A DNA stretch of 64,000 nucleotides from Dictyophora rubrovolvata (lineage: Eukaryota; Basidiomycota; Agaricomycetes; Phallales; Phallaceae), in the NCBI GenBank assembly GCA_029959195.1, contig CP114119.1, positions 372,001 through 436,000 of the forward strand, read 5' to 3'. The translations under genes were made by a program, and so were the position numbers. Of this stretch, positions 8,823 to 55,300 are shown piece after piece (positions within the stretch are counted from its first letter, which is position 1; each line of letters begins with the position of its first letter). Under the pieces are notes generated by a model. The model ran no database searches. It saw only the letters and a list, made by a program, of their open reading frames with translations, and had not been told where the DNA came from.

Positions 8823-9476
8823 TCAGAGACATACTTCAATATCACCGTCCTTCTCTGCAACGGGATTCCCCTGAGGTACAGGATTTTCATTAGTTGACAA
8901 ATGAGTCATGCCTATTTTCCGTCCGAAATCGACCAAAGACGCATGCAATCCGTTCAGGTATTCTTTGTGTGCTCTCTCGGATTCAATGGATCGGGATTTG
9001 TCTGTTTTATCTTCATCTCGATGTTTAAATTGCTCAAATTGTGCCTCCTTAAGCATGACAGCGTAGAGATTTTCCAAATGTTGTTGGGTAAGTTTCGATT
9101 TCATGATCCCAAGGAACTCTTTTGGATTAGAATTGTCAAACACAAGGAACATCCATACTTGTAACAGCACCGGGACGTCGAACAAAGGCAAAGTTGGATC
9201 CGCACACCTGAAAAGATCCAATACCAGGCTTGAGTACACAATTTTTTTCTTAGCCTGTCTGTCTTCACAACATCGAATCTTTTCCAAGCAATTGGAAAAG
9301 TGATATGCAGCATCAGGATCGCTGGAGATGACTGTGAGGAAACATTCACGGTTCTGTAGCATGAAGAGTAAAGCCATGAGAGTCAATGGGTGAAAACTCG
9401 CTATACTGCCTTTATGGGACTGGGGTTTTAACAGGCCGGCGTAGAAGTTGTCCGGACGAGGACAAATAGTGGACAC
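8823..9476 (-). pseudogene. DUF6535-type protein fragment (C-terminal part)
   Basis: The translated fragment aligns by eye with the C-terminal third of the full DUF6535 protein encoded at 52303-55592. Shared blocks include LTxxSxDPDAxxxFSxCLxxIRxC, SADPTxPxF and KSKLxQxxLENLxxVMLKE, followed by LDxLHASLxxFxRxIG. The N-terminal membrane region of the family is missing and nothing upstream supplies it. It lies directly downstream of an aspartic protease on the same strand, the same order seen in mirror image at 36321-38890, so it belongs to the duplicated arm. It is probably a truncated, non-functional copy. Confidence 0.7.
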
Positions 9477-9479
9477 GAT

Positions 9480-9976
9480 TAGCTTATGTTAATATCACCC
9501 GAGCGTCCACCCCCTCTGTCCGCATATATCGTCCCCATTAGGTCCTTTCCCATCATTTTATATTGTCTCTACTATTTGTTTGTTGTGATTAGCTCTATTC
9601 AAATTTACACACTAATACTACTTCTGTTGGAGCCAAATTTTTTTTTTTCACGAAACGAACAGAATTGCTCCTACGTTTTATGATGCGGATTTGCTGTATT
9701 GCCACGGCACTTACCAGTCCCTTACTGCTTATCCATTAACCTCTTTTAATATAACCAACAACAAAGTTAATAGTCTAAGCATGACTTTATCAAGGTTATT
9801 AGTAACAAGGCTGCATTGTGCATTGGCCGCAGACTGGCAGTTGTAGAACGGTGCGTTTCTTCCATCACCTTGAAATGTTATCTACAGCACAATTTCTATA
9901 AATAAATATACAAAATAAATTAACTGCGCTGAAAAGGATCGACCCAATATAAAAGCTACTGTATGTACTTATATAT
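9480..9976. other. Outer edge of left inverted-duplication arm
   Basis: From about 9830 rightwards the sequence matches, in inverted orientation, the region ending near 38360 beyond the second protease copy. No gene is seen. Left of about 9830 the match to the other arm is lost. Confidence 0.5.
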
Positions 9977-11866
9977 TTATATGAATGTAATTCTTTTCAT
10001 CAGTTTCATCAGTTGTTGACAATGCGTTTGGGAATAGGGATCGGGTGGACTGATGTGAAGGCCTCCAATACACATTAGGACATTTCTACGGTGTCGCCAG
10101 TTCTGCAAATCCAACGCATTTGAATTTGAGGCATTACCGTAAGAAAAAGTAATTAATTTCTTTTGAATGAAGCTAAGAGAGTGCATTGGTCAGCGATCTG
10201 ATTGGCACGTTCGGCGAATAACTTCTGTATGTGTACTCACGCATCTCCAAGAGTCCATATTTGCATGTCCTGACCACCAAGGGCACCAATGCAGTCCGAA
10301 GAACCCGGGTTAAGTTGTCCTAGGTTGAATCTAAAGAATAATGATTCATGTTAGACAGAGAGTTTGGTGTTAATAACAAATGGAATCACAGGTCAGGATC
10401 AATGCTCCATTGCTTTCCTCCCCAATCAAACGAGATATTAGGACGGGAAGCACATGAGTAAGACCAAAGGTGAGCGACTGGATCAATTTCTTTAGAACCA
10501 GGAATTTTCCCATACACTTTCGCGACATCGTCTAAGGGACCGTAAACAAAAGTCGTTCCGCTTATTTAATTTAAGTTAGAAAAAAATCCGCAAACAGCCT
10601 GAGGGTGATGGTACATACGTGTCAACGATAGTCGTAATCCCTGAAAGAACTTTTTCTGAGTTCACATTGACAGAACCATTTCCCAAGCTCTACTCGATAA
10701 AAGGAGAAACGACGGAGTGATATTCAATTTCTTCGGTTGTTAACGACTTATTCAAACCTCCGATGAAAAGGGAAGAATCGCCTTCCTCGCTGAGTATGAA
10801 GGAGAAGGAGTTGTCGAAGATTACTCCTTGCGCGAAGGCGTTGTTGACAAAGGGAACACTACCTGGTACAGACGATAAGTTAGGGGGTCTCATCCCCATA
10901 ATACTAAATTGCATAAATAGGTAAACCTTGCTGGAAAAAAATGAGGCACATACCCATCAAATGTGGCGTGAATAAACGTGTTGGATAACATGTCAGCGCC
11001 GCAGAGGAATTGATCATGAGCTATGACCCCCGCGACAACAACTAAAGGAAAAAATTACGGTTTCAAACATGTTATTTTCGAACGAACCTTTTTCACGGCA
11101 TACCTGTGTCTTTGAAAATCGGTCCCGAGGTTGTTGAGCCATCCGCGTAAGCGAGATGGAGCTCACCACCCTGGGGACTGGACGTTGAAGACATATTAGG
11201 GTCATATGTGGCTTTCCCAGTGCAAGCTGTCGAATTGCAGGAAGTAGATGGAATCCATAAGTCAGAAGAGCCAGCTAGTAATAGTAACCGGCTGTCAAGC
11301 CACTTGTAATGGAATAGTAAAAAAACGACATACTGTCAAAGTCAATTAAGAACCGTTGTTCCGGAGTACCGATAGTTATAACTCCTGCCCAGTCCGCGTT
11401 CGAGTCTTCAGCAGTCAAAGATTCGGTTTGACGACGGTGCAAGTCACTGTCAGCGACAGTTGTGTCATGTTGGACACCCTCAGCCTGAGGCTGAACCTTT
11501 GATTATAATGAATTAGACATCTCAATTTTCGATACTCGTGGTAAATTTGGATGAAATTTACCTTGCCTGCAATATTGCGTTCAAAAATCCGCTTGTTGCT
11601 CGTTTCCTATTAGATACATATCAGCATCGTTAAAATGAGTATTGTAAAGACAAAGCTTCATACGCGATTGCCCTGCGAGTACGTCTTTCGTGTCTGTCGA
11701 AATCGAAAGTACCATCTTCTCTCTTCAAAGAGCGTCGATTGATCAAGTCAATACTGATACCTTCACCACTTCTCTTGGGTGGCGAATGAGGACCAGTGGT
11801 AGTAGGACTAGCAGCCACGAAAAGAGACAACGTTAAGGCGACAAATAAAGCCGATTTGGGGAACAT
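9977..11866 (-). CDS. Secreted A1-family aspartic protease, copy 1 (altered C-terminus)
   Basis: Pepsin-type endopeptidase. The N-terminus MFPKSALFVALTLSLFVAAS is a signal peptide, followed by a basic-residue-rich propeptide. Multiple short introns interrupt the gene. The first catalytic motif DTGS is rebuilt across an intron near 11270-11335 and the second DTGT across an intron near 10560-10620; both aspartates are retained. Against the copy at 36321-38127, this copy lacks 4 bp in the last exon, so the conserved final IGFAEL strand is replaced by an unrelated frame that runs to a stop at 9977. That strand packs into the pepsin core in the family, so folding may be impaired. It is either a recent pseudogene or an enzyme with a new tail. 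Confidence 0.8.
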
Positions 11867-14800
11867 TGTCTTGTAGTCTCAGGGTAAGTTAAGACACGAC
11901 CATATCAGCAGCACACCGTGGTCTTGTTTATACTGAAGAAGACCGTCAATGGGAAGGGTCGCTTCACAGTCTCAAGGTCAAACATGTCCTTTTGCTGTTT
12001 TAGGCGAGACCGTCGGTGACATAGCCTGGGAGAGTGTAGCCGTTGGCTCATCAGATCAAAATCAATGAAAATACAATATAAAAAAAAAGTAAAAACGGGT
12101 AATCACCTTCCGTACTGTAAACATGACGGGGGGGGTTTGTAAGTTACGACTGAATAAAGCCTGGCTTTTTGAAAAAAGTCTAGATTAACGCCAGAAACAT
12201 GAATTTCAAATAGTGCAGAGCTACCAGCCTTGAATCGGGCTGTGTGCATGTAATCACCGACGTGCCTGGGCTCGAACAGGCTCGAACTTGGTGGCTTGAC
12301 TCAGGCTGTACATCCATCATACCCGCGTTCAGCCGAATACAATATGCTCAACTATTGCAGTAACGAATAGTGAAAGGAATCGCCGATGTGTAACCGCCGT
12401 GTAAGCGAGAGCGGTTAATAAGTACATTCACTTTATCGAGATAGATTCGTGATATAATCGTCATCGCATTATCTTTTGTGTTGTGCTGAAATCGACTCTG
12501 GTGATAATATTAAGTTTGGCAGAAGGCTAAAAACGGAACATAATCAATTGACATCTCGTACGGTCACGGTGTTTGCATTCGGACGGCGTAATTCCTGTAC
12601 TATTAATACCAGTTGACCGGGACCGTTGGCCGAAAACCTGTGTGCCGTGAACATAAACATAGTGTTACTGTAGCATCAATGACAAGCTTGAACATTAAGA
12701 GCTCCCAGACTCAAGTTTCTTTCCTTCTATGGAAGAATTTGTATCAATCTCGTGTTACCAAGCTGGAAGTTTACCATATATATGTACAAGACTGACGAAC
12801 GTATTAATCGGTAAGCCGGACTTGGTTTCCAGGGTCGAAAGAAATAGCATCGTAGTCGATACAAAAGGATCACAGACGAGACGTTATGGTGCGGTTCGGT
12901 ATTGTCTTAATGGGAAACATTGTCCGATGACGGCTTTCTCTAACATCGTATCTGATATTATCCGATTTGACAAGACCGGTAGGCCCCCTCAGGCTGTGAT
13001 AGAACCTCAAACCGCATGAACATTCTTCAAAGCAGATTGTTCAATACGGTACAGCTGCTCTCTGTTCATAAAAAGGAGTATTTCCATCAGAAGAAGTTTC
13101 AAAGGAGGACGAGACGCGTTTACTTACATATCTCAGTGTTTATGAGTATAGAAGACGTAACTGGATTTCTGATTCTGGCGGTCGCAGTCAAGACTCTAGA
13201 GTCAAGCAACTTGTTGTGACATATTGTCACAGGGTAAAAAAAGCTCCAACCGGCGACTTAGTACAGTGTGCTCCCTCCGTTAGAATAATTGCATTCAACG
13301 GTTCTTGTCACGACTTCACCTAACTTTTGAGTATCTATTCGTCTCATCCCACAACCAATCTCCAACGCGCACGTCGACTTTGCGATTTTACAGATCGACA
13401 GCGTACGTTTATACCTTACCTTGCCCTCAGATTCATAAACGGTGTAACTTGATTACAGGACAAGCTGAAGCTGTAAAGCTACACCGGCCGTAAAAGCTTT
13501 TTGTGGCACCCACGATGTACGGTCGACGTCAGTGGCAGCACCGGGGCGACTTGGAGGTCACTTTACATTTTCAGTCTGCAATTCTCATACAGTTCTAAAC
13601 TCATTATTCCAGTACGAAAACAAGAAGATTTTTAACGCTAAAAGTACCTCCTACCTATCGAACAACAGATCTCTTGCCGATTTGATATATAGCAGTGACC
13701 GCAGTGCTCCAGCCATTTTTACAAAAATCTCCCCAAAGCCTCTACTTGCGAATGTAAAAATAGACCTAAATTTGATGGCATTGCGACCACAAATGAGTTT
13801 ATAATCGAGTTGGAGGGAGGAAAAGAGTCTTATGGTGGTGTTTTTCACGCTTGAATCATAGGTACTGGTTGAAGGCAGTCCTATTCTCTAACTTGCCAAC
13901 ACGTCCTCAAGAGTCTCGCTTAACCGTCAGTCGAGAGGCTTTTCAGCAGAGGAAACCGCCAGTCAGGTTGACTATAAAGAAACCGAGTTTGATCAAAAAA
14001 AAGATGCATAGTAACAATGAACGATACTTGCGGTCCAAAACTGTGCTCCGAGTGTTAAAACCCAAACGAATATCTGGTTCGACGCTCAACGTCATCAGCC
14101 GCCGAGCGAATTTGTTTTGGAACAGAAGATCTTTGAAATTCAGCTCGCATTCAAGCCACATTTGATTACCCTGGACCTGTTTCATAGTCCTAACTTGAAT
14201 TATACTAGAAATAGTTGATAGCGGTGAATTCATTAGGGTGTTCTGGAAACATTAAAAGTCAGTGTGATATATCTCATCTATATCGCCCAACAATTACGTC
14301 TTCAACTTTCTCTTCCGCGTGATATTATGTTCCCTGGAAAAAGCCCTGAGCAATAGGGATGTAGTGCAATCACGCGATTCTACCAACTATCAGGGGTATG
14401 TTTCCATTAGATGATATGATGAGATGATACCAGTCACGTTATGGAAGCTATACCGCGCGGAACTATTGTCATCTCAAAAGGCTAGCTGGAGCAAATATTT
14501 CAGTTTTGCAGACGAGGAACAAATAACCTGAGTCGAGCGAGGAAACTCCTTGAACACAGTAGGGTGTAATATCCACATTTTGTAGGAAATGGCGAAAAAA
14601 GACATCCGATTTGGACAGGGTGTTCGATTCGCGGCCTAGACGAACTTGTGTCAGACCTCTCAGAATGCAGAGAGAATTTACTATGTAGTGTCTGACAAGC
14701 AGCCTCATCAACCCAATAGTATCTTGTAAAGTGTTGACATCATGTGGGGTAGAGTCTTAGAGAGATGGCCAGTAGACTCACTGACTGGCAATGCCCAGGG

Positions 14801-16314: not shown

Positions 16315-16482
16315 ATTTGTTTGAGCGTATATCAGATGATCATAAGTGGTTTATCTTGAATATTGGTTTTGGCTACTGATTTTTAACGCAGCCTTTCCCC
16401 CAGTATATTCGTAAGCGCTCACTGGCAGTTCAATGTCATTTTTAAATTGGCTTAATATCACATATGTATACTGTTTAGTAAT

Positions 16483-16692
16483 AGGGGATGTCAGAGTAGG
16501 TCGTTTCAAGGCTGTTTCGCTGTCTGTTTCGCTGCCTGTTTCGAGATGTCGGGAATACCTCAGGAATACCACTTATCCCGTTTTAACTCTGAACACCCCC
16601 GCTGCCCGTCCGTTTCAACGACCGTTTCATGCGCCGTTTCACCAATGCATTGTACAGTTACTTATGGTGTACATTTCTGGTCAGCTCCAATT
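16483..16692 (+). repeat. Left terminal inverted repeat and subterminal motif array
   Basis: The 49-bp tip is followed by repeated copies of a GTTTC-type motif (CGTTTCAAGGC, CTGTTTCGCTG, CCGTTTCA and others) up to about 16645, then the 35-bp block (GGTGTACATTTCTGG core) that recurs inverted at the other end. Arrays of short subterminal motifs are typical transposase-binding sites in large DNA transposons; binding here is inferred. Confidence 0.8.
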
Positions 16693-16911
16693 TTGTGCCA
16701 GCCGATGACCGGCACAGGGTCTGGAGTATCCAGGATAGTTACCTATCACATCTGGTAGATCACACTGTATTTGTAGTTTAAAGTTTATGTATTTCCGTTG
16801 GCGCTATAGCCTAGTTAACTACCCTTGCATGTGAGTGGTTGTCTAACTGATGTGTGCCGCTAGTTCGATCACTTCCTTTCTATCTAGCTCCCTGATCTCC
16901 TTGGGCTCCTT

Positions 16912-18300
16912 TTGGAGCTTCCAACTTCCGAAGGCCAGCATGCCTATAATGTCTACCAGAACACTAAGACCCAAGCTAAGCGAAAGCTATATGACACTCG
17001 CCGGCATTTTGTAAGCTATTCCTGCTCTTTAATGTGGTTTCTGACTATTTGGTTTCTGACTATTTTTCAGTGTAGGGGCTTAGGTCTGGGCAAGGCCCCT
17101 GTAGATACTGCAACAATGTGTTCGGAACTCGGAATTGAAGTTTGGGTGTGTGAGCGAATAAATAAGCCATGCATCAAACGCGGTGTTTTTTTGCACGACC
17201 CAGGTCTGGAATATTTAGAAGCTGATGTCAGGAGCCGTGCACCTCCAAAATATACAACTGTCGGGAATAGCCCAAATTGGCTCCGAATTCCTGCTGAGAA
17301 GAGTGCTATTATCCAGAACCAAGAAGGTGAGTAAGCTGCTATTGCAAATTAATACAGTACTCAGCTTTTATTAGGTTCAATCCAGCTGGTGGTATTGCGC
17401 AACCTTTGTAGCAATACCGACATCCTTAAGTCAGTGAATTCTACAATTGATGAGGCTGTATATGACCGTAACAATGTCCGAGTAAGCAGTTACTATTATA
17501 TTTATCACTTATTTTTGAGAATATTACAGCCTCAGCATCCAGGCTCTTTAATTCAGGCTGGCTATAATGCTGGCTCACGAGATCCTCCAAGGTTTTTTGG
17601 ACTTGTCAATAACCTTCGGAATAAAGTAAAAAAACTGCCAGATGATGTTAGGAGAGATAAAGACTTAGATATTATTGGTGCCTTTTCACTCTTTTGGCAT
17701 CTTGTTCGTGCGCATGCTCCAGCTGAAATTATCCAGCATATTGAGGTGAAGTTAGAAGAGTTGGGAATGCCAGAGATGGCTGGGAAAGACAGTGAAGGTA
17801 TATCTGTTATTTTTTATTCCTGCCAGCTATATCTTTATTTCAGGTACATCTGGATATCAAATCACTGTAGCTGGTCAGGACTATATATTTCCCTTCGTTC
17901 ATCGGGCACCATCTGAGGGATATCTTGCTAAGGGATATATCTCGTAAGTCTAATTGTAAATTTATTTACTTTGGCTGAAGAATTTATCAGTTCAACACAT
18001 ACTGATCGTTGCTGGGCAGACTTTGCTTTTGCCTGGCAAACTGGCCACACTCAACTCACAAGCAAGCTACCAACTGGAGGTAACTTCGTAGATGTGACAC
18101 TTCAAATTATTGTTGATTCTAGTCCTGATACACTTTTAATTTTTGAACCCGAATATCTTCATGGTACTACAATATCAGTACCTGAGATTTCTCGACATGG
18201 ACTAGTTATAGCTTTTTCAACTCGTATCAAAGAAGCTTATGACCTTGCTGTAGAGAAACATAGGGCTGGTGAATCTCCACTCCTTTATCCATATAATTAG
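16912..18300 (+). CDS. TET-like 2OG-Fe(II) dioxygenase encoded by the transposon
   Basis: Exons can be set at about 16912-17010, 17071-17326, 17375-17481, 17530-17797, 17844-17943 and 17991-18300; introns are 46-60 nt and every junction keeps the frame. The protein contains a CTM-like N-terminal segment (MCSELGIEVWVCERINKPC), a PQHPGSLIQAGYNAG block, and a C-terminal double-stranded beta-helix. The likely Fe(II) ligands are the HTD in STHTDRC (17998-18006) and the His in PEYLHGTT; a downstream RHG may bind 2-oxoglutarate. By family (TET/JBP-like fungal oxygenases) the substrate would be a methylated pyrimidine in nucleic acid, but that is inference. No in-frame ATG precedes the first exon after an upstream stop, so the true start probably lies in an unseen exon. 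The stop is 19 bp from that of the convergent transposase. Confidence 0.75.
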
Positions 18301-18319
18301 TTCTATGTAATATAATATA

Positions 18320-20200
18320 TTAGTTATCTTCATCATCAGTAAAAGAAGCAATGAGACGACTTTGTTCTGTCGTTTCTGAGATATCATCATCAGTTTCATC
18401 CAGATAAGCCAACCCAAAATCTAGCTCTGTATCACTATCACTATCCAAGTTTGCCACACCTTCGTTCCTGTCTCTGTTCCTATTCCTACTTCTGTTTTCA
18501 TTCACATTCTCGTTCACATTCTCATTCCCATTTTCGTTCCCGTTCCCGTTATCGAATAAATCATCGTACATAGGAATAGATCGCATACGAACTACTTCAC
18601 CATTGTATACAGTTTCTGACTGCATGGCTAGAGTGATACCGGGTAATAAGGCCATTTTGGAATCTTCTGGCTCATATGAAAGCAGTGGAAGAGGAAGTGC
18701 GAATTGTAAGTTGATAAAAGACTCGGACATTCCAGTAAATATTTGCCAAAAATTGGATATTGATATAAGTTCGTAATTTTGACGATGGAATAATTGATCA
18801 GCATGTAAGGCAAATTCAGATGGAACTAACGATTGGACTGGATGATCAGGTGGGGCCCAAAGTTGGGCAGCTCTATTAATAAGATTATCGGAAACAGTAA
18901 CCTATTAAAGCTAGTTGAAAATTTTAAGAAATATAATATAAAAATATTCCCACCTGAAAATCCATCGAATTATCATAATTCTGAGGCTCATAGAAGATTA
19001 AATCTGGAATGCCATGGGGGAGGACTTTATTGGGATCTTTCCGACGTTTGGATTGGTTTCTTTGATCTCGGTAAATATTGAGCTCAGCTTGCAACTATGG
19101 AATTATAAGCGATCACCAAAGTAATCTAGGTTAATAAATAATTTGCCTTTGTTTCAGATTTCATAGTATTACTCACGTTTGTAAGTCATTGAGTGGATTA
19201 TACATATCTTGATTCAAACCATAGTCTAGAGCATCCTCAAACCCTGGACTCCAGTGCCGACGAATCTGACTCCACTGGATCTCAGCTTTGATATTTGTCT
19301 TTTTAGGTTTGAAGTGATGCTGTAGAGTGCCTTCTAAAGTAGGATTGAGTATCTGTCGTAAGGTAGTTTGGGCATTTGCGATACCAAAGTTTTCTGTTCC
19401 TCCATCACTTTGAGTAAGAAGAGGTACAGCTTTAAAAATATTAGAAATTGTGGGCCAAGTAGAATTAAAAAGCAACCTACCCTGTAACTCGCGTACTACC
19501 TCTAAATAGTAGTTGCAAATCAACCGTGGGTTTTTATTAGTCCACCATATCTTGGCCCAAAGTAATCGCCTACTAAAGACTTCAGTTCCTAAATGCAACC
19601 ATAGTCCAAATCGCTTCCATTTATCATGCTGATCGACTGCCCATATATAATTAACTCCAGCTGCCAGAAAAGTCTGCCACTTGAATCGTCGCATTTTTCG
19701 TTCTTTTACTAATTCAGGTGCATAATTGTGAAACCACTCCCGAATTTGTTCTCTAATGAATTTGGTCATAAAAACTATTTGTAAGGGAGAAGCTAAAGAC
19801 AAGCCTGGGTATACGAATATTTTTTTCAACACGAATGTGATCCTTGAGAGCTCTGATACCAATGTATGGATATCGTACAAGAATACTCTGAATAATATCA
19901 TTGAGTTCACCATTATTTATCATTTTTCTTGTTTGTTTAGCTGAAAATAAACCCCACTCTTTTCGTCGGTGACGATAGGTTTCTATACTATGGAGAGTTA
20001 TAGCCTAGTATCTCAGAATAAAAGTATAGCAGCTCTATCTGATTGTATAGTTAATGTCTTTGATCTTGTCCTTAATATAACGAACACCCTCTTTATCGCT
20101 TAATCCCAATTTCCATACATAAATAAGATGTTGCTGTAAGATATTATCAGGAACTGGTAAAAGAGATTAGTAAAACTTCGCTACAGTAGGTATTTTCCTT
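18320..20200 (-). CDS. Integrase-fold DDE transposase of the transposon
   Basis: Minus-strand exon chain. The N-terminal part has a helical segment (VPDNILQQHLIYVWKLG), then SIETYRHRRKEWGL and LVRYPYIGIRALKDH, which read as DNA-binding helices. The catalytic core has the first Asp in WAVDQHDKWKRFG, the second in LLTQSDGGTENFG and the Glu in KAEIQWSQIRRHW, matching the DDE triad of integrase-like cores. After a short intron come LQAELNIYRDQRN and KVLPHGIPDLIF. The tail has an Asn/Glu/Arg repeat region and an acidic end. Short introns lie near 19075-19170, 19440-19480 and 19780-19830. All triad residues are present and I see no obvious break. The start Met is not resolved. It probably cuts and pastes the element in trans at the inverted repeats. 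Confidence 0.75.
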
Positions 20201-20334
20201 ACCAGTGTTATGCTGATTTCATTGTTGTGGTATTGAAACAAGTATTATAATGGAGATAGAAATCCTCGGCCAATATTGACTGAACTACAATCGTTGACAC
20301 CTGTCTCTCACAGTATCATCCCTCTTAGATCACT
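20201..20334. promoter_or_regulatory. Putative shared promoter between transposase and kinase
   Basis: The transposase and the kinase diverge from this short gap. It is the only non-coding space upstream of both, so it should hold both promoters. No specific box was identified. Confidence 0.3.
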
Positions 20335-23194
20335 ATGCCTTTCTCAGTTGAATTTACAGAACAAACTGAAACTGTACCCTGTGGCCGTGCAAGTTGCCGT
20401 AAACTTGTTCCAAGATTTCAGTTACAGGAAGTTATAAGTGAGGCAAATGGAATGGTTAGTCGCTTCGTGTGTCCTGCATGCTATAAGTATTATGATGGAA
20501 AAACTGCTGCTGGTATGTCCATAAGTCTTTATAATTGGATAAAACAACTTATTGCTATTTAAATATAGCAAGAAATGCAGGGGCTATAGGAAGCTCTGTA
20601 ACTTTGTTCGAGCCAAGGCAAGATATTTGTGTAGGGGCAAATCTCGCTTAAAGAAGTCATAGGTTCTGAGTCTTTTACTACTATTCTGATTAAATAAACT
20701 TTTTTTATAGATGAAGCTGCACCTCCAGTTCGTGCAGTTGGGGCTGGAATATCAAACTTCCAGCAATCTTTCTCCGAACCATCTATTCATTGGGGCCCCC
20801 CTCTTGCTATCCAAAGCAATCAGTTGCAATATTCTGGAGAGCCTCAGCCACAAGTACTCGGATACAGTCTTGCCCATAGTCAGCTATCTCAGCAATTTAG
20901 TAGATATGAAGCCCGTAGCCAACAAATTCATCATTCACAAGATACATTCCCTCTTACTGTCAAACTTGCTTATTGGAGTAATAGTGAAGGAAAAGTCATC
21001 GTTATCAATGTAAGATTTATCTTATTATTAGCTTTCTAAGTATTTAGGATTATCCAGCCTGTTACCGAAACCTGTGGCCAAGTTGATATGCATATTGGCT
21101 ATACTGAGCTTTGGTCCCTTACGATTACAACGATTACTCCACGACTTGGGACTTGGTTATCAGGATTCAGCTTGAATCTAGCATTACTTGAGTTACGAGA
21201 CAAGGACTATATTGCTATCAAACTCTTACCTCGCAACTGTATCCAGCATTATTTCCTCACAAGCTCTACCTCTAAAGGGATCGTAAAACTCAAGTCTAAA
21301 AAACTAGAGTTACGACTTATTATGCCTTATATGACTTTCCTTGCAATCGAGGAGCATTTGGAGCATTTGGATTCATCTATTCAGAATGTGTACTCTTTTT
21401 CTATTACATCCACCTCGCAGACTCAGAACTCGCAATCTCAGGAGTATTCAGAAATACAATCATATGAAGGCAATGAAAAGGGAAAGGGAAAGGGAAAGGG
21501 AAAGGGAAAGGGAAAGGGAAAGGGAAAGGGAAAGGGAAAGGGAAAGGAAGAAGGAGAAGGGGAAGGGGAAGGGAAAAGAAAAGAAAAGCAGAAATCTCAG
21601 AGTGAAAGTGAAGGCGAAAGTTCAGAGAAATCATTAGTATTATATACTCCTAAAAAGGTAAGGACAATACTAGCTAAGATTAGTATTGAAGTTTAAGGTC
21701 TTTATTTCAGATAACATCTATACGAAGCACCCACCCTGAGACTAGATCAGCATCTGGTCAAACTATACTCGATATTGTAGACACTCATGAATCTCAGTCA
21801 GCAGTAATCATATCGGAAATGCAAGGACTTTCTCCTTTTAAATCTAGAACTAAGCGAAAGGTATTTTAATTCTAAGAAATATGGTTGCTAAAACTATAGC
21901 TAATTTTTGAGTATAAGGCAGCAGACTTAGATGAAAGTGATAAAAATAATAAAACTCCTCGAGAAAGAACAGCAGTTGTATTTGGGTCTCCTGACTTCTT
22001 GCTGCTGGATAATGCTCTAAAACAGCAAGCTGAATCCAGTGAAGTATTTATTAAAGCTGCTCGTAAGTTGAAATAGTATTGCAATTACTTAATCTCAAAT
22101 CTCATCTATATACTTAGTACCAATTGGAACTCTGTACCTTGTGAATGGATTTCTCATTCCAAGGCAATCATTAACCGAACTCCTTTCTAATCCCACCTTA
22201 CTTAATCCTGGCCAGTTCAAAGAAGGAGGTATCTTCGGTACTCTTGATGTCAATTTCAAGAAAATGGTCGGAGATATGTCAGGCTTGTTCAAAACTACAC
22301 ATATGGGATGCCTTCAACCAAATGATACAGGGGTCGAAGGAGGTTTTCCTTGGAAGATGAATATTGCTATAAAATGACCTTATAATTCCGAATCTAACGA
22401 TAATACTAGATCTATATTAAGCTATAAAAAAGGCCAATGAGGAAAGCCTACAACTCGGCGATATGTTTTTGGGACTGAATTGCATGAAATAATCCAGGAA
22501 ATTCGATGTCTTATTTGGGGCGATGCTTTGATGGATCTTGTTTATAAATTCATAGAACAGCAGATAAAGCAGCAAGGCCAACCCCCTTTCTTGATTCCTA
22601 CCATGCAATTTGTTTGTTTTGCTGTTATCGTGGCAAGATCTCCTGAAAACATAGCTCTTCTTGCCGAAGAATTTATTGAAGGGGACTATCTGAAGTATAT
22701 GGACAATCGTCTCCCAGTTCCTCTCAAGGATATAACTGATCCTGATGAATTATATCGTGCAAATTTCTTGGCTTTTTCCCAGCATATTCAGTGGAAGAAA
22801 ACAAAAGGAAGAGTTTTTGTAACTGATTTTCAAGGTATGTTTACCTATAATTTATTACTATACAATATTTTAAATAGCTTGCTAGGGAATGATACTTTAT
22901 TGACAGATCCTCAAATTCTTACCCATCCATAAGTTCTACAGCTAGTATTAACTAGAAAGGCAATTTTCTAAATGTATTGGATTTAGTGATCTTGGTGGAA
23001 ATCTTTTTGGGCATGGAAATATTGCAGGAAGCTTTGTTAATTTTCCGAAGGAACATATCTGCAATCAATTCTGTCAATTTTTTAATTTAGGCCCACCTGA
23101 AGAGCTGGATGGAAACGAGTCATTGACAGCAGGTGCTGGAGATAACGAGGATGTTCCTATTCCTGTTCCAGAAGAAGAATGCGAAACAATATGA
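20335..23194 (+). pseudogene. Alpha-kinase (MHCK/EF2K type) gene of the transposon, interrupted
   Basis: Exon chain: 20335-20512, 20711-21009, 21058-21657, 21711-21860, 21917-22062, 22118-22834, 22886 onward. The N-terminus has paired cysteines (CGRASC, CPAC) like a small zinc finger. A linker holds a long Lys-Gly tract from a GGGAAA repeat. The kinase domain shows SGLFKTTHMGCL and IAIK (probable ATP-binding Lys), LLTDPQI, the glycine-rich GGNLFGHGNIAGSF, and the zinc site HICNQFC near the end, all hallmarks of alpha-kinases. Two in-frame TGA codons (22375-22377, 22438-22440) and a TAA (22930-22932) interrupt it with no usable GT donor near the first two; each could come from a C-to-T change (CGA or CAA). 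A frame change or unseen intron separates 22930 from the block starting near 22960. Likely inactive as it stands. Confidence 0.7.
21475..21549 (+). repeat. GGGAAA hexanucleotide microsatellite
   Basis: About twelve in-frame GGGAAA units encode alternating Lys-Gly within the alpha-kinase linker, followed by a looser purine-rich tract to about 21600. Length variation here would not shift the reading frame. Confidence 0.9.
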
Positions 23195-23713
23195 TGTGTT
23201 TATTTGTTAATAATAGCTCTATACTTTCGATAATTTTCCTGTAGCAAAGTTTAAAAAAACTGAGATCGTTTTACAAGATATCTTGTGCCTATTATTAATA
23301 TTTATTTAACATATGGTGGTATATATAATCTAACTTATTGTATTGAAACTTGTTTGTTGGGACTCTAAAAAATCGGAAAATCCTATGGGTAGCTTAAAGT
23401 ATCTATCAAGCCGAAGTATCCCGAGCTTAAGCAAAAGTGCCGAATTGGAGCTGACCAGAAATGTACACCATAGTTACTCAAAAAAAATTTATATGATTTA
23501 TTAAAGAAATATTTCTAGAAATTCTCCTTAAAAATTCATCCCTGACCGAGAACAACCGATGGGTGAAACGGACAGCAAAACGGCTGCCGTTTCGCTCAGT
23601 TCAGTGAAACGCCTCTTGAGGCGTTTCACTCGTTTCGCCGTTTCACCAGCCATTTCACTGAAATCGAAACAGACAGCGAAATGGCCTTGAAACGGCCTAC
23701 TCTGACATCCCCT
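23195..23713 (+). repeat. Right subterminal region and terminal inverted repeat
   Basis: It holds the 35-bp inner inverted block (23443-23479), a 28-bp palindrome at 23603-23630 (AGTGAAACGCCTC, then TT, then its complement) and several GAAAC/GTTTC motifs, then the 49-bp tip ending CATCCCCT at 23713. This mirrors the left end in motif content but not in exact order. Confidence 0.8.
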
Positions 23714-24530
23714 AATGCCTTGGCCTCAAAACCTCTTCCCATGGGACAAATTTTCCTTTCTTCATGTAACATCAACTGTAGAATATCTTTTGGGTTGTAC
23801 TATGTACGAATAAATTGTTGAATGATTATTTTACACAAGTCAGTCCGGAATGGTTTTTTCACGATTCGTACTATGTAGCCAAGTCTCACGCATTCCAGCC
23901 TTCATTTCATTTTCTCCATTAAATATCCTAATTTTTTTCTCTTCATAAATCCTTTGTTTGCATCAAGTCTCGAGGTCAACTGCCGTATTAGATATTCACG
24001 ACATAAGGTCAGTGGCAGCGTCGAACCTCTAGTACACTGTGACCAACGCGTTACTGAAATCATTTAGGCTGTCCAACCTCTATATATTTATACCCACACA
24101 TCCCATCTCCCAAAACAGTCAACTATAAAAAGGCTAGCCCCATAAATTTCCCTGGATCCTCGGACACCGACGACACCAACACCAACAGCTCTGAGATGAG
24201 AAGAAACAAAAATCAAAAACAGGAACAATTTCAACAGTGCTTATTATTTATATTCTATTTCTATTTTCAGTCGGTGGCGTTTACATCATACATGTGATTA
24301 TTATTTCATGATCAATCGTAAGTCCTTCTATTATATCCGTCAATTGCGTTGTTACATGTTGTTCAGTGACTGACAGCCATGGGAGGATTAAGTACGAGGA
24401 TTGTGTGGTGCTCTCATCATATGATTTTTGAGTGAGTGAAACGAACTGTTGTAGTGGCCGGATTCAGGACTCTTTATATTATGCCTTCTATTCCATAACC
24501 TATTATTAATCCCATCTACACGCACGCACA
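23714..24530. other. Intergenic DNA upstream of the carboxylesterase
   Basis: AT-rich non-coding sequence with no supported exon. The 24080-24530 part presumably contains the promoter and leader of the following gene; a TATATATTTATA run is near 24080. Confidence 0.4.
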
Positions 24531-27274: not shown

Positions 27275-28755
27275 ATGGCACTCGTCACACATCCTATATA
27301 TGCCAAAGACTGGTCGTTCTCCTCATCATCACCCACAACTTCTTTCGATGCGCCGCCACCGTACAGCCTCGCCGAATCCCTATCAACATCATCCCACGTT
27401 GTTCAGCCGTCATCTGCTCCCGCTGTCCAACAACCTTCGACTAATAACAACAACAGGAAAGGTTCCAACAAGAGACGCGCGCAGGAATTGGGATTAGAAT
27501 GGGATGAAGAAGATAGACGCATTTCTGTCTGGTCACATGTTGCAGCACCGTCATCATCATCATCAACAACAACATCAACAGCGACAGCATCGTCATCTTC
27601 GACCTCGACTTCGTCGACAGCGCTCACTTGCACAAATGGGAGCAAAAAGGCTAAACTGTCCGACTCAGAAGACAACAACAAAGACATCGACAGGTCTATC
27701 GCTTCAGCAGCAGCAGCAGCCTCCGTTTCTCCCAAAATGGAACACGTTCTCTTGTTCCTCGTTGATGCTTTAACAAATGTATGTGCTCCGGCGCCACAGA
27801 ACCAGTCTTCGTCTCCGTCGCCTTCCCAATTATCATTATCATTATCATCCCCTTTGCTTCTTCTTCCAGCGCCAACGTCGACGTCAACGGCGACGTCACA
27901 ATCAACTCCGTTGTTGGTTATAGAACCTGCGCCTGCGGATGATGGTGATGATGGTAAATCCAGATCTGAACCTACCCTACTCCAACCCGTACTCGTACCT
28001 GTACCCCTACCCGAATCCGAACCAGACGCAGACGTAGATACTGCGTCGCACCCACACCCATCAACACTACCACCACTATCACCAACATCACCACCACGGG
28101 TTAGACCCATAAAGTCGCTCACACTCCCGACATCGCCTCTATCAGACTCGGAAGATCGCGCGCCGTATGTGCGCAAGACGTTCGTTGTCCGACAAGCATG
28201 TGATGCGCGCACCGAGCAAAAGCTAGGTCGTTGGGTCCTCGCCAAGAATCATTTTTTAAGGTACTCCTCAACCTATTCATCTCTGACTCTTTTTTTCTAA
28301 TTCAATCTTTTAGTGTGCGTTGTTTGGACCCGAGAACGCAAAGTATTGAATGGCAACGTTCACTACGCAGTATAGGCTGGGAACCTCTCCACCCGTACTT
28401 TCAAGCGCAAGCAGAAGCGGAATTCGAAGCTGCTGCCACCGCAGCAGCGGCAGAAGTCGCCCACCATCATCATCATCATCAGCTCAACAACACCCTCTCC
28501 GAATGGATCGAAGACGATTTCGACGTCGAGTACGAAAACGAAGGTGAAAGCGAATATATCGGAGACGAAGAAGAAGAAGAATATTGGGGAAATGAAGAAG
28601 AAGAAGAAGAAGAAGAAGAAGAAGAAGAGGGAGATGTAGAGTTTGAGTTGCCGAGACAGAATGCACTTGAGGGTGTTCATACGGGTGTTTGGGATTCGGG
28701 GATTTCGCTTGCTCCGACTCCGGCAGAGCTGTCGCTTGATGACTGTCGATGCTAA
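27275..28755 (+). CDS. Ser-rich, acidic-tailed hypothetical protein
   Basis: Two exons, 27275-28260 and 28314-28755, joined across a 53-nt intron (GTACTC...TTTTAG) to give NHFLSVRCLD. The N-terminal half is Ser/Thr/Pro-rich and low in complexity, with a basic NKRRAQELGLEWDEEDRR segment and a KKAKL basic patch that could act as a nuclear signal. A conserved-looking block follows (YVRKTFVVRQACDARTEQKLGRW and IEWQRSLRSIGWEPLHPYF), then a His run and a long Glu tract. No known domain is recognised. A truncated copy of the first exon is fused into a chimeric frame at 33970-34623, minus strand. Function unknown; a nuclear location is inferred only from composition. Confidence 0.75.
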
Positions 28756-33969: not shown

Positions 33970-34623
33970 TTACAAACTAGGTTCATATCTGGATTTTACC
34001 ATCACAGGCGCATGTTCCATAACAAACAACGGAGTTGATGGTGACGGAGCTGGAGCACATACATTTGTTAAAGCATCAACGAAGAACAAGAGAACGTGTT
34101 CCATCCCGGGAGAAATGGAGGCTACTGCTGAAGCGATAGATCTGTCGATGTCTTTGTTGTTGTCCCGGGAGTCAGACAGTTTAGCCTTTTTGCTTCCATT
34201 TGTGCAAGTGATCGCTGTCGACGAGGTCGAGGTCGAAGATGGTGGTGCCGTCGCTTTCGTTGTTGTTGTTGATGATGATGATGATGACGACGGTGCTGCG
34301 GTATGTGACCAAACAGAAATACGTCTATCTTCTTCATCCCATTCTAACCCCAACTCATGCGCGCATCTCTTGTTCGGACTCTTTCTGTTCAGCGTAAATG
34401 ATTCAGTAACGCGTTGGGCGTAGAGGTTCGACGACTTGAAGCGTATAGAAAATGAGATAAGCCTTGAAAGGTAGGAGGTACTTTTGGCGTTAAAAGGCTC
34501 TTCCGTACTGAAAATTATGGTGAATGATGAGTTTAGAGCTGTATTGACAATCGCAGACTGAAAAAGTGACCTCCAAGTTGTTTTAGTGCTGCTGTCACGC
34601 AAAAGGTTTTTACAGCCTGTCAA
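33970..34623 (-). pseudogene. Chimeric 217-codon ORF: F-box-like remnant joined to a truncated Ser-rich gene copy
   Basis: The 5' half (TGCKNLLRDSSTKTTWRSLFQSA and following) resembles the F-box-like region of basidiomycete proteins and lies in the inverted-duplication arm. From the NRKSPNKRC point (about 34385) onward it is a copy of the Ser-rich gene at 27275-28755 (ELGLEWDEEDRRISVWSH and MEHVLLFFVDALTNV are nearly identical). The copy is internally deleted after CAPAP and stops within the KSRSEP region of the parent. The result is one open frame over two unrelated sources. Whether it is expressed is unknown; it starts about 750 bp upstream of the dCMP deaminase on the same strand and ends about 100 bp from it. 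Confidence 0.6.
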
Positions 34624-34909
34624 GCTTAACAGCTCCAGCGTGTCCTGTAATAAAGTGTAAGGATCAAACCGTTCATGAATCTGAGGACAAGCTAAGGTAT
34701 TAGATAAAAACGTACGTCAGTCTTGCGTCGGTCTGCAAAATCACAAAAGTCGACGTGCGCGTTGGAGATTGGCCATGGGACAAGCAACGAATGGGGGGTT
34801 AATAATCGATTCCTAGAGGGGTTTTTGATAGAAAGTCATGAAGAAGAAGCATTGAATACAACTGAACATTTATTCAACGTCTCAGCGGTTAGTGGGAGCT
34901 TTTTTACCA

Positions 34910-34926
34910 TGTGACAATACGTCACA
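34910..34926. repeat. TGTGAC-N5-GTCACA palindrome, copy 2
   Basis: Same 6-bp inverted repeat with a 5-bp spacer as at 13215-13231 and 40661-40677, here preceded by TTTTTTACCA, a context also present at 40651. Confidence 0.6.
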
Positions 34927-36320
34927 ACGAGCTGAACCTGCGTCAGAATCAAAAAATCCAATCATGTTTTCTATATAGACACTTTATCCGTCACCTTCTT
35001 TGACACTTCTTCCGGTGGAAATACTTCTTTTAAGATGAATCCGGAGCTGCACCGTACAAATGTGCTTTGGAAAAACTATTCATGCAATTTGGAGTTATAT
35101 CACAGAATTCATCGGTCTTGTCAAACTGGATGGTACGAGTTATGACGAGACACGACGTTAGATAGAGGTCGTCGTCAAAGGATGTTTATTATTAGGACAC
35201 AAAGGTCAATACCGAACCGCAACGTAACGACTCGTCTGTTGATCCTTTTGTATCGACTATAGCTACGATGCTATTTTCTTTTGCGAACCAAATCCGGCTT
35301 ACCAATTAATACGTTCATCAGTTAGGTAGGCTTCCAGCTTGGTTTCCTTCCTAATAGCACGAGATTGACAACTTCTTTCATAGAAGGGAAGAAACGCAAG
35401 TCTGGGAACTCTTAATGGGCTGTTTCAAGCTTGTCATTGGTGCTACAGTAACACCACGTTTAGCTGATACATGCAAACTGGCTTGTTGAAATCCGATAAT
35501 GAGGTAATTTCACGGATTTGTTGTCTCATCCTTTTTCATGACTTATGTCCACAGCACACAGGTTTTCGGTCAACGGTCACTCCCGGTCAATTGGTATTGA
35601 TGGTATTGAAATTACATATGCTGTCCGGATGTAAATACCGTATTCAGAGATGTCAATTAAGTATATTCCGTTTTTTAGCCTTCTACCAAATTCAATAGTA
35701 TCACCGGGGTACATTTCAGCACGACTATGTACATACATATATCACGAGTACTATCTCGATAAAGTGAGTGTACTTACCGCTCTCGCTTACATGGCGGTTA
35801 CACACCGGCGTAATTTCATTCACTATTCGTTGCTGCAATAATCGAGCATATTGTATTCTGCACTGGTTGAACGTGGGTATGACGGCGGTGGATGTACAGC
35901 CTGAGCCAAGCCACCAAGTTCGAGCCAGGCACGTCGGTCAACCGGTCACAGCCTCATTCGACATTGGTAACTCCGTATTATTTGTAATTCAAGTTTCTAA
36001 CGTTAACTTGGCCTTTTTAAGAGCCAGGTTTCATTCACTCTTGACTTAGAAACTTCCCTTAGGCTGTCATGTTTACAGTACAGAAGGTGGTTACCCGTTT
36101 TTAATACTTTTCTTTATTGTATTTTCATCCGGTGAGCCAACGGCTACACTCTCCCATGCTATGTCACTGACGGCCCCGCCTAAAAACAGCAAAAGGACAT
36201 GTTTGACCTTGAGACTGTGAAGCGACCCTTCCCATTGACGGTCTTCCTCGGTATAAATACGGACCATGTTGCGCTGCTGACATGCTGTCGTGTCTGAACT
36301 TCCCCTAAGACTACAATACA

Positions 36321-38127
36321 ATGTTCCCCAAATCGGCTTTATTTGTCGCCTTAACGTTGTCTCTTTTCGTGGCTGCTAGTCCTACTACCACTGGTCCTCA
36401 TTCGCCACCCAAGAGAAGTGGTGAAGGTATCAGTATTGACTTGATCAATCGACGCTCTTTGAAGAGAGAAGATGGTACTTTCGATTTCGACAGACACGAA
36501 AGACGTAATCGTAGGACTATCGCGTATGAAGCTTTGTCTTTACAATACTCATTTCAACAATGCTGATATGTATCTAATAGGAAACGAGCCCAAAACAAAC
36601 AGATTTTTGAACGCAATATTGCAGACAAGGTAGGTTTCATCCAAATTTACCACGAGCATCGAAAATTGAAATATTCTAATTCATTATCATCAAAAGGTTC
36701 AGCCTCAGGCTGAGGGTGTCCAACATGACACAACTGTCGCTGACAGTGACTTGCACCGTCGTCAGATCGAGTCTTTGAATGCTGAAGACTCGGGCGAGGA
36801 CTGGGCAGGATTTGTAACTATCGGCACTCCGGGGCAGAGTTTCTTAATTGACTTTGACAGTATGTTGTTTCTATTATTATTCCATTACAAGTAGCTTGAC
36901 AGTCAGTTACTATTACTAGCCGGCTCTCCTGACCTATGGGTTCCGTCTACTTCCTGCAATTCGACAGCTTGCACTCGGAAAGCCAGATACGACCCTACCA
37001 CGTCTTCAACGTCCAGTCCCTTGCAGTTTGGTTTACTCCTCACTGCTGCGGATGGCTCAACAGTCTCGGGACCGTGTTTCAACGACACAGGTATGCCGTG
37101 AAAAAAAAAAAAAAATCCGTTTGAAAATAACATGTCTGAAACCGTGTTTCTTCCTTTAGTTGCTGTCGCGGGGGTCGTAGTTCAAAATCAACTCCTCTGT
37201 GGCGCTGACACGATAACCGGCGTTCTTACTAGGCTTACTTTTGATGGGTATGTGCCTCATATTCTTCCAGCAAAGTTTACATTTTTGATCGAATACTTAT
37301 GCAATTTGATAAAATTAGTATTATGGGATTGGGCCCACCAGAGGGTATTCCTTCCTTCGTCAGCGCTGCCTTCGCGCAAGGAGCAATCCCGGAAGATTCG
37401 TTCTCCTTCATACTCAGCGAGGACGGCGCATCTTCTCTTTTCATTGGGGGTGTTAATGGGTCGTTAACAACCGGAGAAATTGAATATCACGACGTCGTTT
37501 CTCCTTTTACCTCGTGGAGCTTGGGAAATGGTTCTGTCAATGTGAACTCAGAAAAGGTTCTTTCAGGGATTCAGGCCCTCATTGACACGTATGTACCATC
37601 ACCCTCAGGCTGTTTGCGGATTTTTTTCTAACTTAAATTAAATAAGCGGAACGACGTTAATTTACGGTCCCTCAGACGATGTTGCGAAAGTGTATGGGAA
37701 AATTCCTGGTTCTAAAGAAATTGATCCAGTCAATCACCTTTGGTCTTACCCATGTGCTTCTCGTCCTAATATCTCGTTTGATTGGGGAGGAAAGCAATGG
37801 AGCATTGATCCTGACCTGTGATTCCATTTGTTATTAACACCAAACTCTCTGTCTAACATGAATCATTATTCTTCAGATTCGACCAAGGACTAACTGGTGC
37901 TGGTTCTTTGGACTGCGTTGGTACCATTCATGGTGAGGACGGCGAGGCGTGGACCCTTGGAGATATGTGAGTATATATTCAAAAGTTATTCGCTGAAGGT
38001 GCCAATTAGAATGTTGATTAATGTACTTTCTCTTAGGTTCATGCAAAACCAATTAAATGTTTTCTCTTTCGGTAATGCCTCAAATTCAAATGCCTCGATT
38101 GGATTTGCAGAACTGGCGACACCGTAG
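36321..38127 (+). CDS. Secreted A1-family aspartic protease, copy 2
   Basis: Pepsin-type endopeptidase, about 400 residues after splicing, and the intact member of the inverted pair. Signal peptide MFPKSALFVALTLSLFVAAS and a propeptide come first. The first active-site motif is FDTGSPDLWVPS, rebuilt across the intron near 36860-36920; the second is IDTGTT, rebuilt across the intron near 37589-37646. DGIMGLGPP and SFSFILSEDGASSLFIGG are standard family blocks, and the chain ends in the expected IGFAEL strand, then ATP and a stop. About seven short introns separate the exons. The first exon is almost identical to copy 1 while flanks differ more. It is likely secreted or vacuolar. Confidence 0.88.
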
Positions 38128-38459
38128 AAATGTTCTGATGTGTGTTGGAGGTCTTCCCATCAGTCCGCCCGTTTTCCATTCCCAAAAACAACTAATGGAA
38201 AGAGTTGCATTCATATATATACAGTAGCTTTTATATTTGGCCGACCTTTAGTGCAGTTAATTTATTTTATACATTTATTTATAGAAATTATGCTGCAGAA
38301 TTTCACATATTATTAGGGTGATGGCAGAACGCATCGTTCTACAACTGCCACCAAACTGCATTCGTCAGGTTATCCTTTTGATTCATCCGTCTGTGCTTAC
38401 AAAAAAAAGGTTTTTCTGAACCTCGTATTGCGCTAGTATTTTATTCGACGACATTCGCT

Positions 38460-38890
38460 CTCATGCTTCCTTTTCGCGGACTAGAACTCGCCGCACTCGT
38501 AAAAATAAACGGGGACATCTCAACAGTGTCAAAATCAATTCAATGGCGAAAACTTTTTTTTTTTTGTAGATTATGCAGGACTCGGACAGCGGTCGAGATG
38601 GCCAAACAGGGTATAAATGTAAACACCACCTCCGCCATAGCGCCGAGATATTTCCCCCAAGCAGTACCTCGCATTCTACAAGGATACCCCGTCCGTCGAT
38701 ATATTCTGCAACGAGTCTAGGACGTATTATGCTAGATGGAACGCAGTCAAATCTCTGAACAAAATTTGGACCTTGATGGACGCCGACGTAGCTACTAGCC
38801 GTTCCCTTATTTACAGAATGCCCCGACTCACTCCTATAATTCGATGATGTTCGCAGGATCGGGTAAATGTCCTGTCGTTTAGTTGTGGCA
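38460..38890 (+). pseudogene. DUF6535-type protein fragment (middle part)
   Basis: Plus-strand pieces match the middle of the full DUF6535 protein at 52303-55592: a PKQYLAFYKDTPSVDIFCNES-like stretch, TYYARWNAV, KIWTLMDADVA and PRLTPIIR followed by CSQDRV. The pieces are in shifted frames with at least one in-frame stop, so it is broken. It sits directly downstream of protease copy 2, the mirror of the arrangement at 8823-9476, but covers a different part of the protein. Confidence 0.6.
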
Positions 38891-52302: not shown

Positions 52303-55300
52303 CTAACCAGGTGCCTTCGACCATACAGACTCGAGCGCGTTTTTTATCCGGTTGGCTGTTGAATGAAAACCTGTGTACTGTAAAAAATGTGTTTAGTTAT
52401 AGAAAATAATTAGAGGATTTTATGAAATTACCTCATTCTCGTCAAGTTCAAACTCCCGTCGACATGCTTCAGTATCATCATCCCTTCTCGCTGCGCTCCC
52501 ACTGACAAACGTAGAATTTCCGGCAGTTGACTCAAGTTTTGGCCAGGCAGTGCCTATTATTCGTCTAAACTCTCCGAGAGATGCATGTAATCGGTCGAGG
52601 TATGTTAGATGTGCTTGTCGGAAACTAAAGGCGTCGCTTGTATCGTTGCTTCGATATATAGTTTCTTCTTCCTCGAATTTAACCTCCTTGAGCATGACAA
52701 CAAAAAGATTTTCCAAACGTAGCTGGTTAAGCTTTGATTGTATGACCATAAGAAACTCTTTCGCGTCAAAATGAAGCACAAGGAGTATCCAAGCTTGGAC
52801 CAGTATCGAGTCATCATTGACAAACCATGGCATAGTCGGATCCGCAGACATGAAGAGTGTCATTAGGCTCGGGTAAACATAATCTCCTTTAATCCGTTCA
52901 TATTTACAGCGCCGAATGTTTTTGAGACATTTCGAGAAATTGGATCTTGCATCGGGATCGTTAGAAAGAATTGTGAGCAAAGACGCGCGACTCTGTGGCA
53001 TGAATAACAGTGAAACTATGGGAGCTGAGACATCCACCCGATCCTGCGAACACCATCGAATTATAGGAGTGAGGTCGGGGCATTCTGTAAAAAGAAAACG
53101 GCTAGCTACGTCGGCGTCCATCAGGGACCAAATCTTGCTCAGACACAATATTGCGTTCCATCTAGCATAATGCGTCATAGACTCGTTCCAGAATGCATCG
53201 ACAGACAAGATATCCCTGTGGAATGCGAGGTAATGTTTGGGGGAAATGTCTCGGTTTCCAGAAGAAAGCGACCAATGGAATTTCCGAAACAGCTGTTCTA
53301 AGGACTCTTGTCTTTGTCTTTCATCTGCGATGATTGTTTGTTCTGATGTAAGATTACGATAGACGGAGACAACAAGGAGATAATGTGTTTCGACAGATCT
53401 GATCTCGGAGGAATAATCGGGTTCAACACCTTTGTAGAAACAACGGAAAAGGTAGTCAAAAATCCACTTCCTCTGTTCCGGGGTACCGAAGGATACGATG
53501 CCCGTATTATTTGTGGGTATGCGTGAGGGATCAGAGTCCCAGTTAAATGGATCTAGTTCAGCGTATGTGAGAATATGCGCCACCAATGTCGCATCTTTTG
53601 ATGCCTTTTCGAAAACACGATGCCATATGGCTAGCGGGAACTTGAGAGTGTCGTCATTGGAGGCATCCTTCAGAACTTGAATGTAGTCTCCATTACATAT
53701 GCTTTTGACGATACGGCAATAACTTTGATTTTCCATTTCATCCAATTGCCTGCTGTCTTCATCGGAGAGCTTTTGGAGGCGATCCCAGTGGTAGATGAGG
53801 CCTGACTGGAGATCCAGACACAAACCATAAAACAGATCATTAAGATTAGTTTCATCGACATTCGAAGCCCAGAACAATTGAAGTAGAATCAGCGTGGCTT
53901 CTTGAGCGGGAGCTGGATGCACAGATATACCCTGTGCGATAATCCGGCGAACGCTTGGGTTAGAAGAGATCGCGCAAAGCCAATAAAGAGCCTTGCAATC
54001 AAGGGAAACCACCCCCTCTTTAATGGCTTCATTTATATTATCCTCCCTCCAGTTGATGAAACCATTGGTCGATATATAGCCCCGAAGATGCTGATGTGTA
54101 CGGCTAAGCCATGTAATTAGTTTGCGCAATGTTCTATTAAATGGATTGAAAAGATATCGGGGGGGCCGCCAGACAGGAAATGGGATCCTCTCTTGGAATA
54201 TAACCTTCCAATAAGAGATCTTTTTTCGGTATGAGACCCTGCAATTCAAAATCCTTTGTCGAAATTTATCCTTCGCCATTAAGCCAAAGCCACGAAAGAT
54301 TGCTGACAGGAAATAATATACATTGCCAGCATATATGGTCAATGAGCTTGTATATGGGCAATCCGGGTACCGAATAGGTAATATCACAGAGATGAAATAC
54401 AAAGCATAGGTAATGCCAGCAATGACGACGATGACCCAGGCAATTCGAGGATCCAATGGAAAAAGGAAAATGATAACGCCCGCGAGGAAAACACCGAGTG
54501 CGAGATGTAGGAGAATCGGAAGAAGATCGATAATGAGACTGACTTTCCACAATTCGAGCCCTTGGAAACGGAAGTGTCTGACTCGTGCTTTGTTGAGAGC
54601 TGTTCCAGAAATGGCTGACATATAATAACACAGCCACTGCTTAGTGAGGACGGCAATTAAAGCGGTTGATAAACTGATCGCCAGACTCGTAAACCATAAG
54701 CCGTTTACTAGAAATGCATTCGTCGAAGGTCGGAATGGGGAGTTAGGAGTTAATGTAGAGTTAAGGATGTTGGTTATCGGGGTGCCACTGAATTGCGCAA
54801 GCTGAACTTGGGCTATTTGGAAGAGCAAGGATGCAGAAACTTGGGTATAATCCTGTTGAAGGCTTTGGGACGCTTGAGAGATGAATGTCGTTATAACACC
54901 CGAAAATAAACCGGCCTAAGTAAAGTAATAAGCTTCAAAAATAATCTCATAGCAACAAGTAGCATACGAAAACGAGGAGAACATCTACAGTCTCTTTCCA
55001 TCCTTCCACCTTCTCACGATCATAGACATCGGCTTCATCGAGATATGTCAGCCAAACACGAGCATTATCAGCTAACTCCTCTCCATGCCGATCACGAGGA
55101 TACTTCTGCTCATAGTCAAAACGATTATTTGCTTGAAGACCATTGCATTAAATGATGAAGATAAACAAAAAGGCTGAAAATGCTCACAGTAAGTCTTAGG
55201 CAATACGGTTTTTGTCAATCCAAAAAGCGTCTTGCGCAAAGCTTGAATTTCTTCTGTATGGTCCGAGTTACGCTCTGGAGAATGTATTAGTATAAGTGAT

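Follow-up and report, generated by a model that had tools for sequence, protein, structure and literature searches.

A 64,000-nucleotide stretch of contig CP114119.1 from Dictyophora rubrovolvata (positions 372,001 to 436,000 of the forward strand, assembly GCA_029959195.1; referred to below as the window, in which all coordinates are numbered) contains at 16482-23714 a 7,233 bp element that is almost certainly a transposon. Between its matching inverted tips lie, in this order, genes for a putative TET-like 2-oxoglutarate- and Fe(II)-dependent (2OG-Fe(II)) oxygenase, a DDE transposase of the integrase-core type and an alpha-kinase, all three with frames that can be spliced. The original prediction for this locus was of one mobile element holding three genes of different function, and this is supported by the tips, the spliceable frames and the repeats at the element ends.

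The left terminal inverted repeat (TAGGGG..., 16482-16531, plus strand) is 50 nucleotides long, and 47 of its 50 positions are complementary to the right repeat (...CCCCTA, 23665-23714, minus strand), a complementarity of 94%. An 18-base stretch chosen from the inverted tip has two perfect matches in the window, one per strand, and no others with three or fewer mismatches, compared with a chance expectation of 0.01 matches in shuffled sequence when up to three mismatches are allowed; the predicted pairing of the tips is therefore confirmed. The tips start TAGGG and end CCCTA, so that TA..TA termini and inverted repeats, by which IS3EU elements are recognised in the available part of PMC10045372, are both present. 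The original prediction had also described AAT flanks. The trinucleotide AAT does indeed stand directly outside both tips when these are taken to start at A16483, whereas from T16482, the register that gives TA..TA ends, the flanks carry no target-site duplication. As the tips are complementary for one base beyond the A16483 register, and chance alone would produce a 3-bp flank match in one of three registers with a probability of 0.038 at the base composition of the window, AAT is weak evidence for a duplication.

The two element ends can be aligned with each other across the subterminal region, which contains a second, inner pair of inverted repeats, 30 nucleotides in length and 100% complementary (16663-16692, plus strand, and 23443-23472, minus strand). 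Both ends also carry clusters of GTTTC, a motif that was picked post hoc after inspection of the sequence. The left cluster (16499-16644, plus strand) has seven motifs in a single orientation, spaced in 11-12 bp steps within two groups, and the right cluster (23561-23697) has eight in both orientations, as GTTTC and GAAAC. Over the left 211 bp this amounts to 33 motifs per kb and over the right 272 bp to 29, whereas the element interior and the remainder of the window have background densities of 2.5 and 2.7 per kb, respectively. Such arrays would be fitting candidates for transposase binding sites.

The transposase gene (18320-20004, minus strand) is represented by a five-exon model in one phase (20004-19815, 19774-19481, 19429-19177, 19125-18954 and 18901-18320), in which all introns are GT-AG; the N-terminus of the protein would lie upstream of 20004, outside this model. 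Three joined exons match the integrase-core family PF24764 of Pfam at E 3.4e-4, with a score of 20.8 bits that falls short of the curated cut-off of 26, and the catalytic residues, picked by eye, have the spacing D-58-D-40-E. Both observations support a transposase that is integrase-like rather than of the KDZ type, as had been proposed. Exon 4 is interrupted by two in-frame stops, which, like the TGA codons of the kinase gene described below, had gone unnoticed in the original prediction. No GT-AG intron of 40-200 nucleotides bypasses both of them; two GC-AG introns (138 and 192 nucleotides) would do so. The gene is broken in the five-exon model, and therefore this copy of the element is probably non-autonomous. 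A match in the Protein Data Bank (PDB) to designed SAKe repeat proteins, over residues 4-38, was discarded because its score was inflated by summed weak repeats, and the matches to PDB sequences below it were at chance level. Single-sequence AlphaFold2 modelling of a piece that included one translated intron gave a pLDDT of 40, too low to support a search by fold.

The alpha-kinase gene (20336-23194, plus strand; exon structure partly resolved) was correctly identified in the original prediction: with X placed at two stops its product scores 51.1 bits against PF02816, for which the cut-off is 21.3, and the downstream stop-free piece by itself scores 43.1 bits. The best solved relative, a weak one (E 0.011), is eEF2 kinase. 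There are TGA codons in the kinase frame at 22375 and 22438, and the frame shifts near 22930, at an apparent frame break or intron. The gene is probably, not certainly, broken, since six possible introns of 81-198 nucleotides, four of them GT-AG and two GC-AG, could in principle remove both TGA codons; these candidate introns are longer than those of the oxygenase gene. The product also has a cysteine-bearing N-terminal region and a repeat rich in Lys, Gly and Glu. The N-terminal region (20336-20512) contains two cysteine pairs and resembles the ADD_ATRX zinc domain weakly (15.2 bits, below the cut-off of 25.7); if this resemblance were true it would fit chromatin targeting. Within the gene, an array of GGGAAA-like units at 21480-21580 encodes a Lys-Gly and Glu-Gly run.

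The putative oxygenase gene (16936-18300, plus strand) can be assembled from six exons (16936-17010, 17071-17326, 17375-17481, 17530-17797, 17844-17943 and 17991-18300) joined across five GT-AG introns of 46-60 nucleotides, to give 371 open codons. No start codon was found for this model, and the left limit of exon 1 is arbitrary. The last exon encodes H-T-D, followed by an H that precedes G-T-T and, 11 residues further, by an R; this pattern was read by eye. His, Asp, His and Arg in such an order form the pattern of 2OG-Fe(II) oxygenases. The three proteins, for each of which a Pfam family had been anticipated, fared unequally in profile searches, with the kinase above the cut-off, the integrase core below it and the oxygenase without a family. 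The predicted oxygenase is supported by the pattern in an open six-exon model, but by no credible match in Pfam or the PDB.

The element interior is in addition depleted in CpG, to roughly half the level of its surroundings. It holds 137 CpG dinucleotides, whereas 200 shuffles averaged 246 and never fell below 217, and the ratio of observed to expected CpG is 0.56 inside versus 0.92-1.11 in 10 windows of equal length outside, some of them overlapping. At 1-kb resolution, 23 windows inside the element have a median ratio of 0.52 and 219 windows outside it one of 1.02; for the 24 outside windows with a GC content below 0.41 the median is 0.935, and the 15 lowest-CpG windows among all 252 fall within the element. 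All three genes lie within the deficit, which does not extend into the element ends, where CpG is retained (ratios of 1.04 and 1.18). A methylated past would explain this deficit, which is what an element living under CpG methylation should show, and the index (CpA+TpG)/(ApC+GpT) is 1.31 inside versus 1.06-1.20 outside. However, CpA and TpG are themselves not elevated: their observed to expected ratios are 1.02 and 1.05 inside, and 1.06 and 1.09 elsewhere in the window. The deficit is therefore not a clean signature of deamination, and a straightforward history of methylcytosine deamination was not accepted although the one index agrees with it. Selection or an older base composition are possible sources.

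TET/JBP genes were reported in December 2025 from 11 transposon lineages (Kojima, 2025; PMC12730594). In the available part of that account, all IS3EU families that carry such a gene (TET+ IS3EU) have it between the transposase and alpha-kinase genes, which are oppositely oriented; their hosts are seven Pucciniales species (Puccinia and Melampsora) and Tuber indicum, and the rust elements have 6-bp duplications and ends of the form TAYGG..CCRTA (PMC12730594). The Dictyophora element resembles them in combining an integrase-like DDE transposase, an alpha-kinase and a putative TET/JBP-type gene, in its long inverted repeats with ends of the TA..TA type (TAGGG..CCCTA) and in the opposed orientation of its transposase (minus strand) and kinase (plus strand). 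The idea that this three-gene unit was undescribed is thus not supported. Besides that paper, no report of all three genes together was found among the papers listed in a literature search that left most subscription journals outside, nor was a reported role for an alpha-kinase in transposition. The Dictyophora element differs from TET+ IS3EU in its gene order of oxygenase, transposase and kinase, and in that no 6-bp duplication was found. Its host class is also another one, probably the Agaricomycetes, from which the available part of PMC12730594 lists no TET+ IS3EU. The co-occurrence of the three gene kinds is already known; their order, the oxygenase motif and the probable host class set this element apart.

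That motif can be set beside the published classes by their descriptions. AG-type TET proteins are marked by two residues counted from the first His, Gly or Ser at +5 and an Asp at +11, and PE-type proteins have HxE in place of HxD (PMC12730594, available part). The Dictyophora protein has HxD and, assuming no gaps, W and A at the two AG-type positions. Other TET+ lineages do occur in the Agaricomycotina, where Kyakuja, Zisupton, EnSpm, Plavaka and Helitron2 are those named in the same part of that paper. These resemble the present element, with its putative oxygenase, in being agaricomycete transposons with a TET-type oxygenase gene, but belong to other lineages; Kyakuja, for example, has 7-bp duplications and CA..TG ends and is without inverted repeats. 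The wider IS3EU/GingerRoot superfamily offers a parallel in its TA..TA ends and integrase-like core. In complete IS3EU families the ends are invariably TA..TA, and 6-bp duplications are usual (PMC10045372, available part); the duplication is absent here, and the word kinase does not occur in that paper. IS3EU has been recorded in the agaricomycetes Phlebopus and Ganoderma, as far as the available record goes. In the accessible part of PMC4469406, rusts are said to have a greatly expanded set of alpha-kinases and Microbotryomycetes to lack them, a distribution that would fit carriage of these genes by transposons.

On this comparison the element is quite probably IS3EU-like. Taken as a whole, it is probably an IS3EU-like DNA transposon of the cut-and-paste type, present as a degenerate single copy and carrying an alpha-kinase gene and a putative TET-like oxygenase gene. 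Several results weigh against this reading. A scan of the flanks at offsets of -3 to +3 and lengths of 2-10, made on this single degenerate copy, did not find a 6-bp target-site duplication but AAT (3) and TA (2), and strict membership of IS3EU is for that reason unproven. The integrase-core score falls short of its cut-off, as given above, and the unspliced transposase pieces have no integrase match at E up to 1. The oxygenase fits no family in Pfam even at E 10 (HMMER filters on), matches sequences in the PDB at chance level and finds nothing credible in PHROGs and NCBIfam, and its last exon gave a mean pLDDT of 46 and an unusable fold in single-sequence AlphaFold2. To these can be added the CpA and TpG ratios described above. 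A tblastn search of the window for a related element gave no match better than E 2.8 beyond the element itself, and no relatives of the transposase, oxygenase, kinase or tip were confirmed in viral contigs. The oxygenase likewise had no relatives in phages (tblastn) and none confirmed in prokaryote genome contigs. Absence from viral, prokaryote and phage sequences is uninformative on copy number, as these are not fungal genome sets.

Three other explanations were weighed. That the locus is a chance grouping, in which a transposase relic lies next to two host genes within unrelated inverted repeats, would agree with the sighting of one copy and with the broken transposase gene. It is nevertheless highly improbable, and was rejected, given tips expected 0.01 times by chance, a second and perfect 30-nucleotide inner pair, GTTTC arrays at both ends, a CpG deficit that crosses all three genes and ends with the element, and the published record of the same three gene kinds together in IS3EU elements (PMC12730594, available part). 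An alternative that accepts the transposon but assigns it to another superfamily of integrase-like elements, bearing AGGGG..CCCCT ends, a true AAT duplication and the same cargo, would make the likeness to IS3EU a matter of resemblance. The exact AAT on both sides speaks for this, as does the fact that bacterial IS3 members other than the IS407 and IS2 subgroups have 3-bp duplications (PMC10045372, available part). It is still distinctly unlikely, because a 3-bp match has by itself a 3.8% probability of arising by chance, because complementarity one base further out produces TA..TA ends, and because it is for IS3EU that an alpha-kinase partner gene is reported (PMC12730594, available part).

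The third explanation is compatible with an IS3EU-like element and concerns the first gene, which might encode an unrelated transposon accessory protein with HTD...H...R by chance. The failure of all profile and PDB sequence searches favours it, and so do the W and A that replace the AG-type residues and the lack of a PE-type HxE. Against it, the order and spacing of the His, Asp, His and Arg residues fit a double-stranded beta-helix oxygenase, as judged by eye from general knowledge of this fold. Moreover, in the available part of PMC12730594, PE-type TET proteins reached just E 1.4 in HHpred to the nearest solved TET homologue, and the third gene on record for such elements is a TET gene. 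An unrelated accessory protein is accordingly rather unlikely, and the motif and context together make a TET-like 2OG oxygenase the fairly likely identity of the first gene.

If the element is IS3EU-like in this sense, the GTTTC-rich ends would be the binding sites of its integrase-type DDE transposase and the TAGGGG tips the places of cleavage. The oxygenase would most likely oxidise 5-methylcytosine on the element or nearby and so oppose silencing; the function of transposon TET genes lacks experimental validation, according to the available part of PMC12730594. The probable substrate of the kinase would be either the transposase itself or a host factor of chromatin or translation. The mobility of the element, the biochemical roles of the three proteins and a separate capture of the oxygenase gene are inferred. 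The simplest account of the gene order would be a core of alpha-kinase and transposase that gained an oxygenase gene at another position, which would mean such a separate capture. It can be suggested tentatively, as somewhat less probable than its opposite, that the TET-like oxygenase stands outside the AG and PE, and perhaps the PU, classes and was gained by an agaricomycete IS3EU-like lineage in a capture separate from that in the rust and truffle elements, at the opposite side of the transposase. Were this so, the alpha-kinase and transposase would form a stable core and the oxygenase a recurrent add-on, and transposons living under CpG methylation would have recruited demethylases convergently.

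A different order of the same gene kinds would, more generally, argue for repeated independent capture over a single inheritance, and repeated capture would in turn speak for real selection to escape methylation. By the same token, a second lineage arranged differently would lend more weight to the alpha-kinase as a working part. Transposons with a DNA-demethylase-like enzyme of their own are a possible eukaryotic counterpart of the anti-defence genes of phages.

Around the element, nine of the 26 open reading frames of at least 170 amino acids in the window were scanned for domains. Three of the nine had no match, and the others comprise a DUF6535 protein, a SET-domain protein, two carboxylesterase pieces, an aspartyl protease and a flavin-monooxygenase-like piece. 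The DUF6535 protein (PF20153, E 8e-42) is encoded at 52423-54915 on the minus strand, and parts of its gene match 38643-38871 and 9030-9365 at the DNA level, which suggests that these two segments may be decayed relatives of it. To our knowledge DUF6535 is nearly confined to Agaricomycetes, and this is one basis for the probable host class.

The window also contains several duplications. An inverted pair of approximately 2.8 kb (9835-12656 and 35543-38350) has 82% identity and is adjoined by a weaker pair of 66% identity (12654-13659 and 34466-35462). A direct duplication of approximately 2 kb and 85% identity links 56570-58554 with 61394-63386; an open reading frame in the 56570-58554 copy matches carboxylesterase PF00135, and another carboxylesterase frame starts at 24510, near the element. 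Finally, inverted copies of approximately 350 bp and 86% identity (27452-27795 and 34046-34389) lie within similar serine-rich frames.

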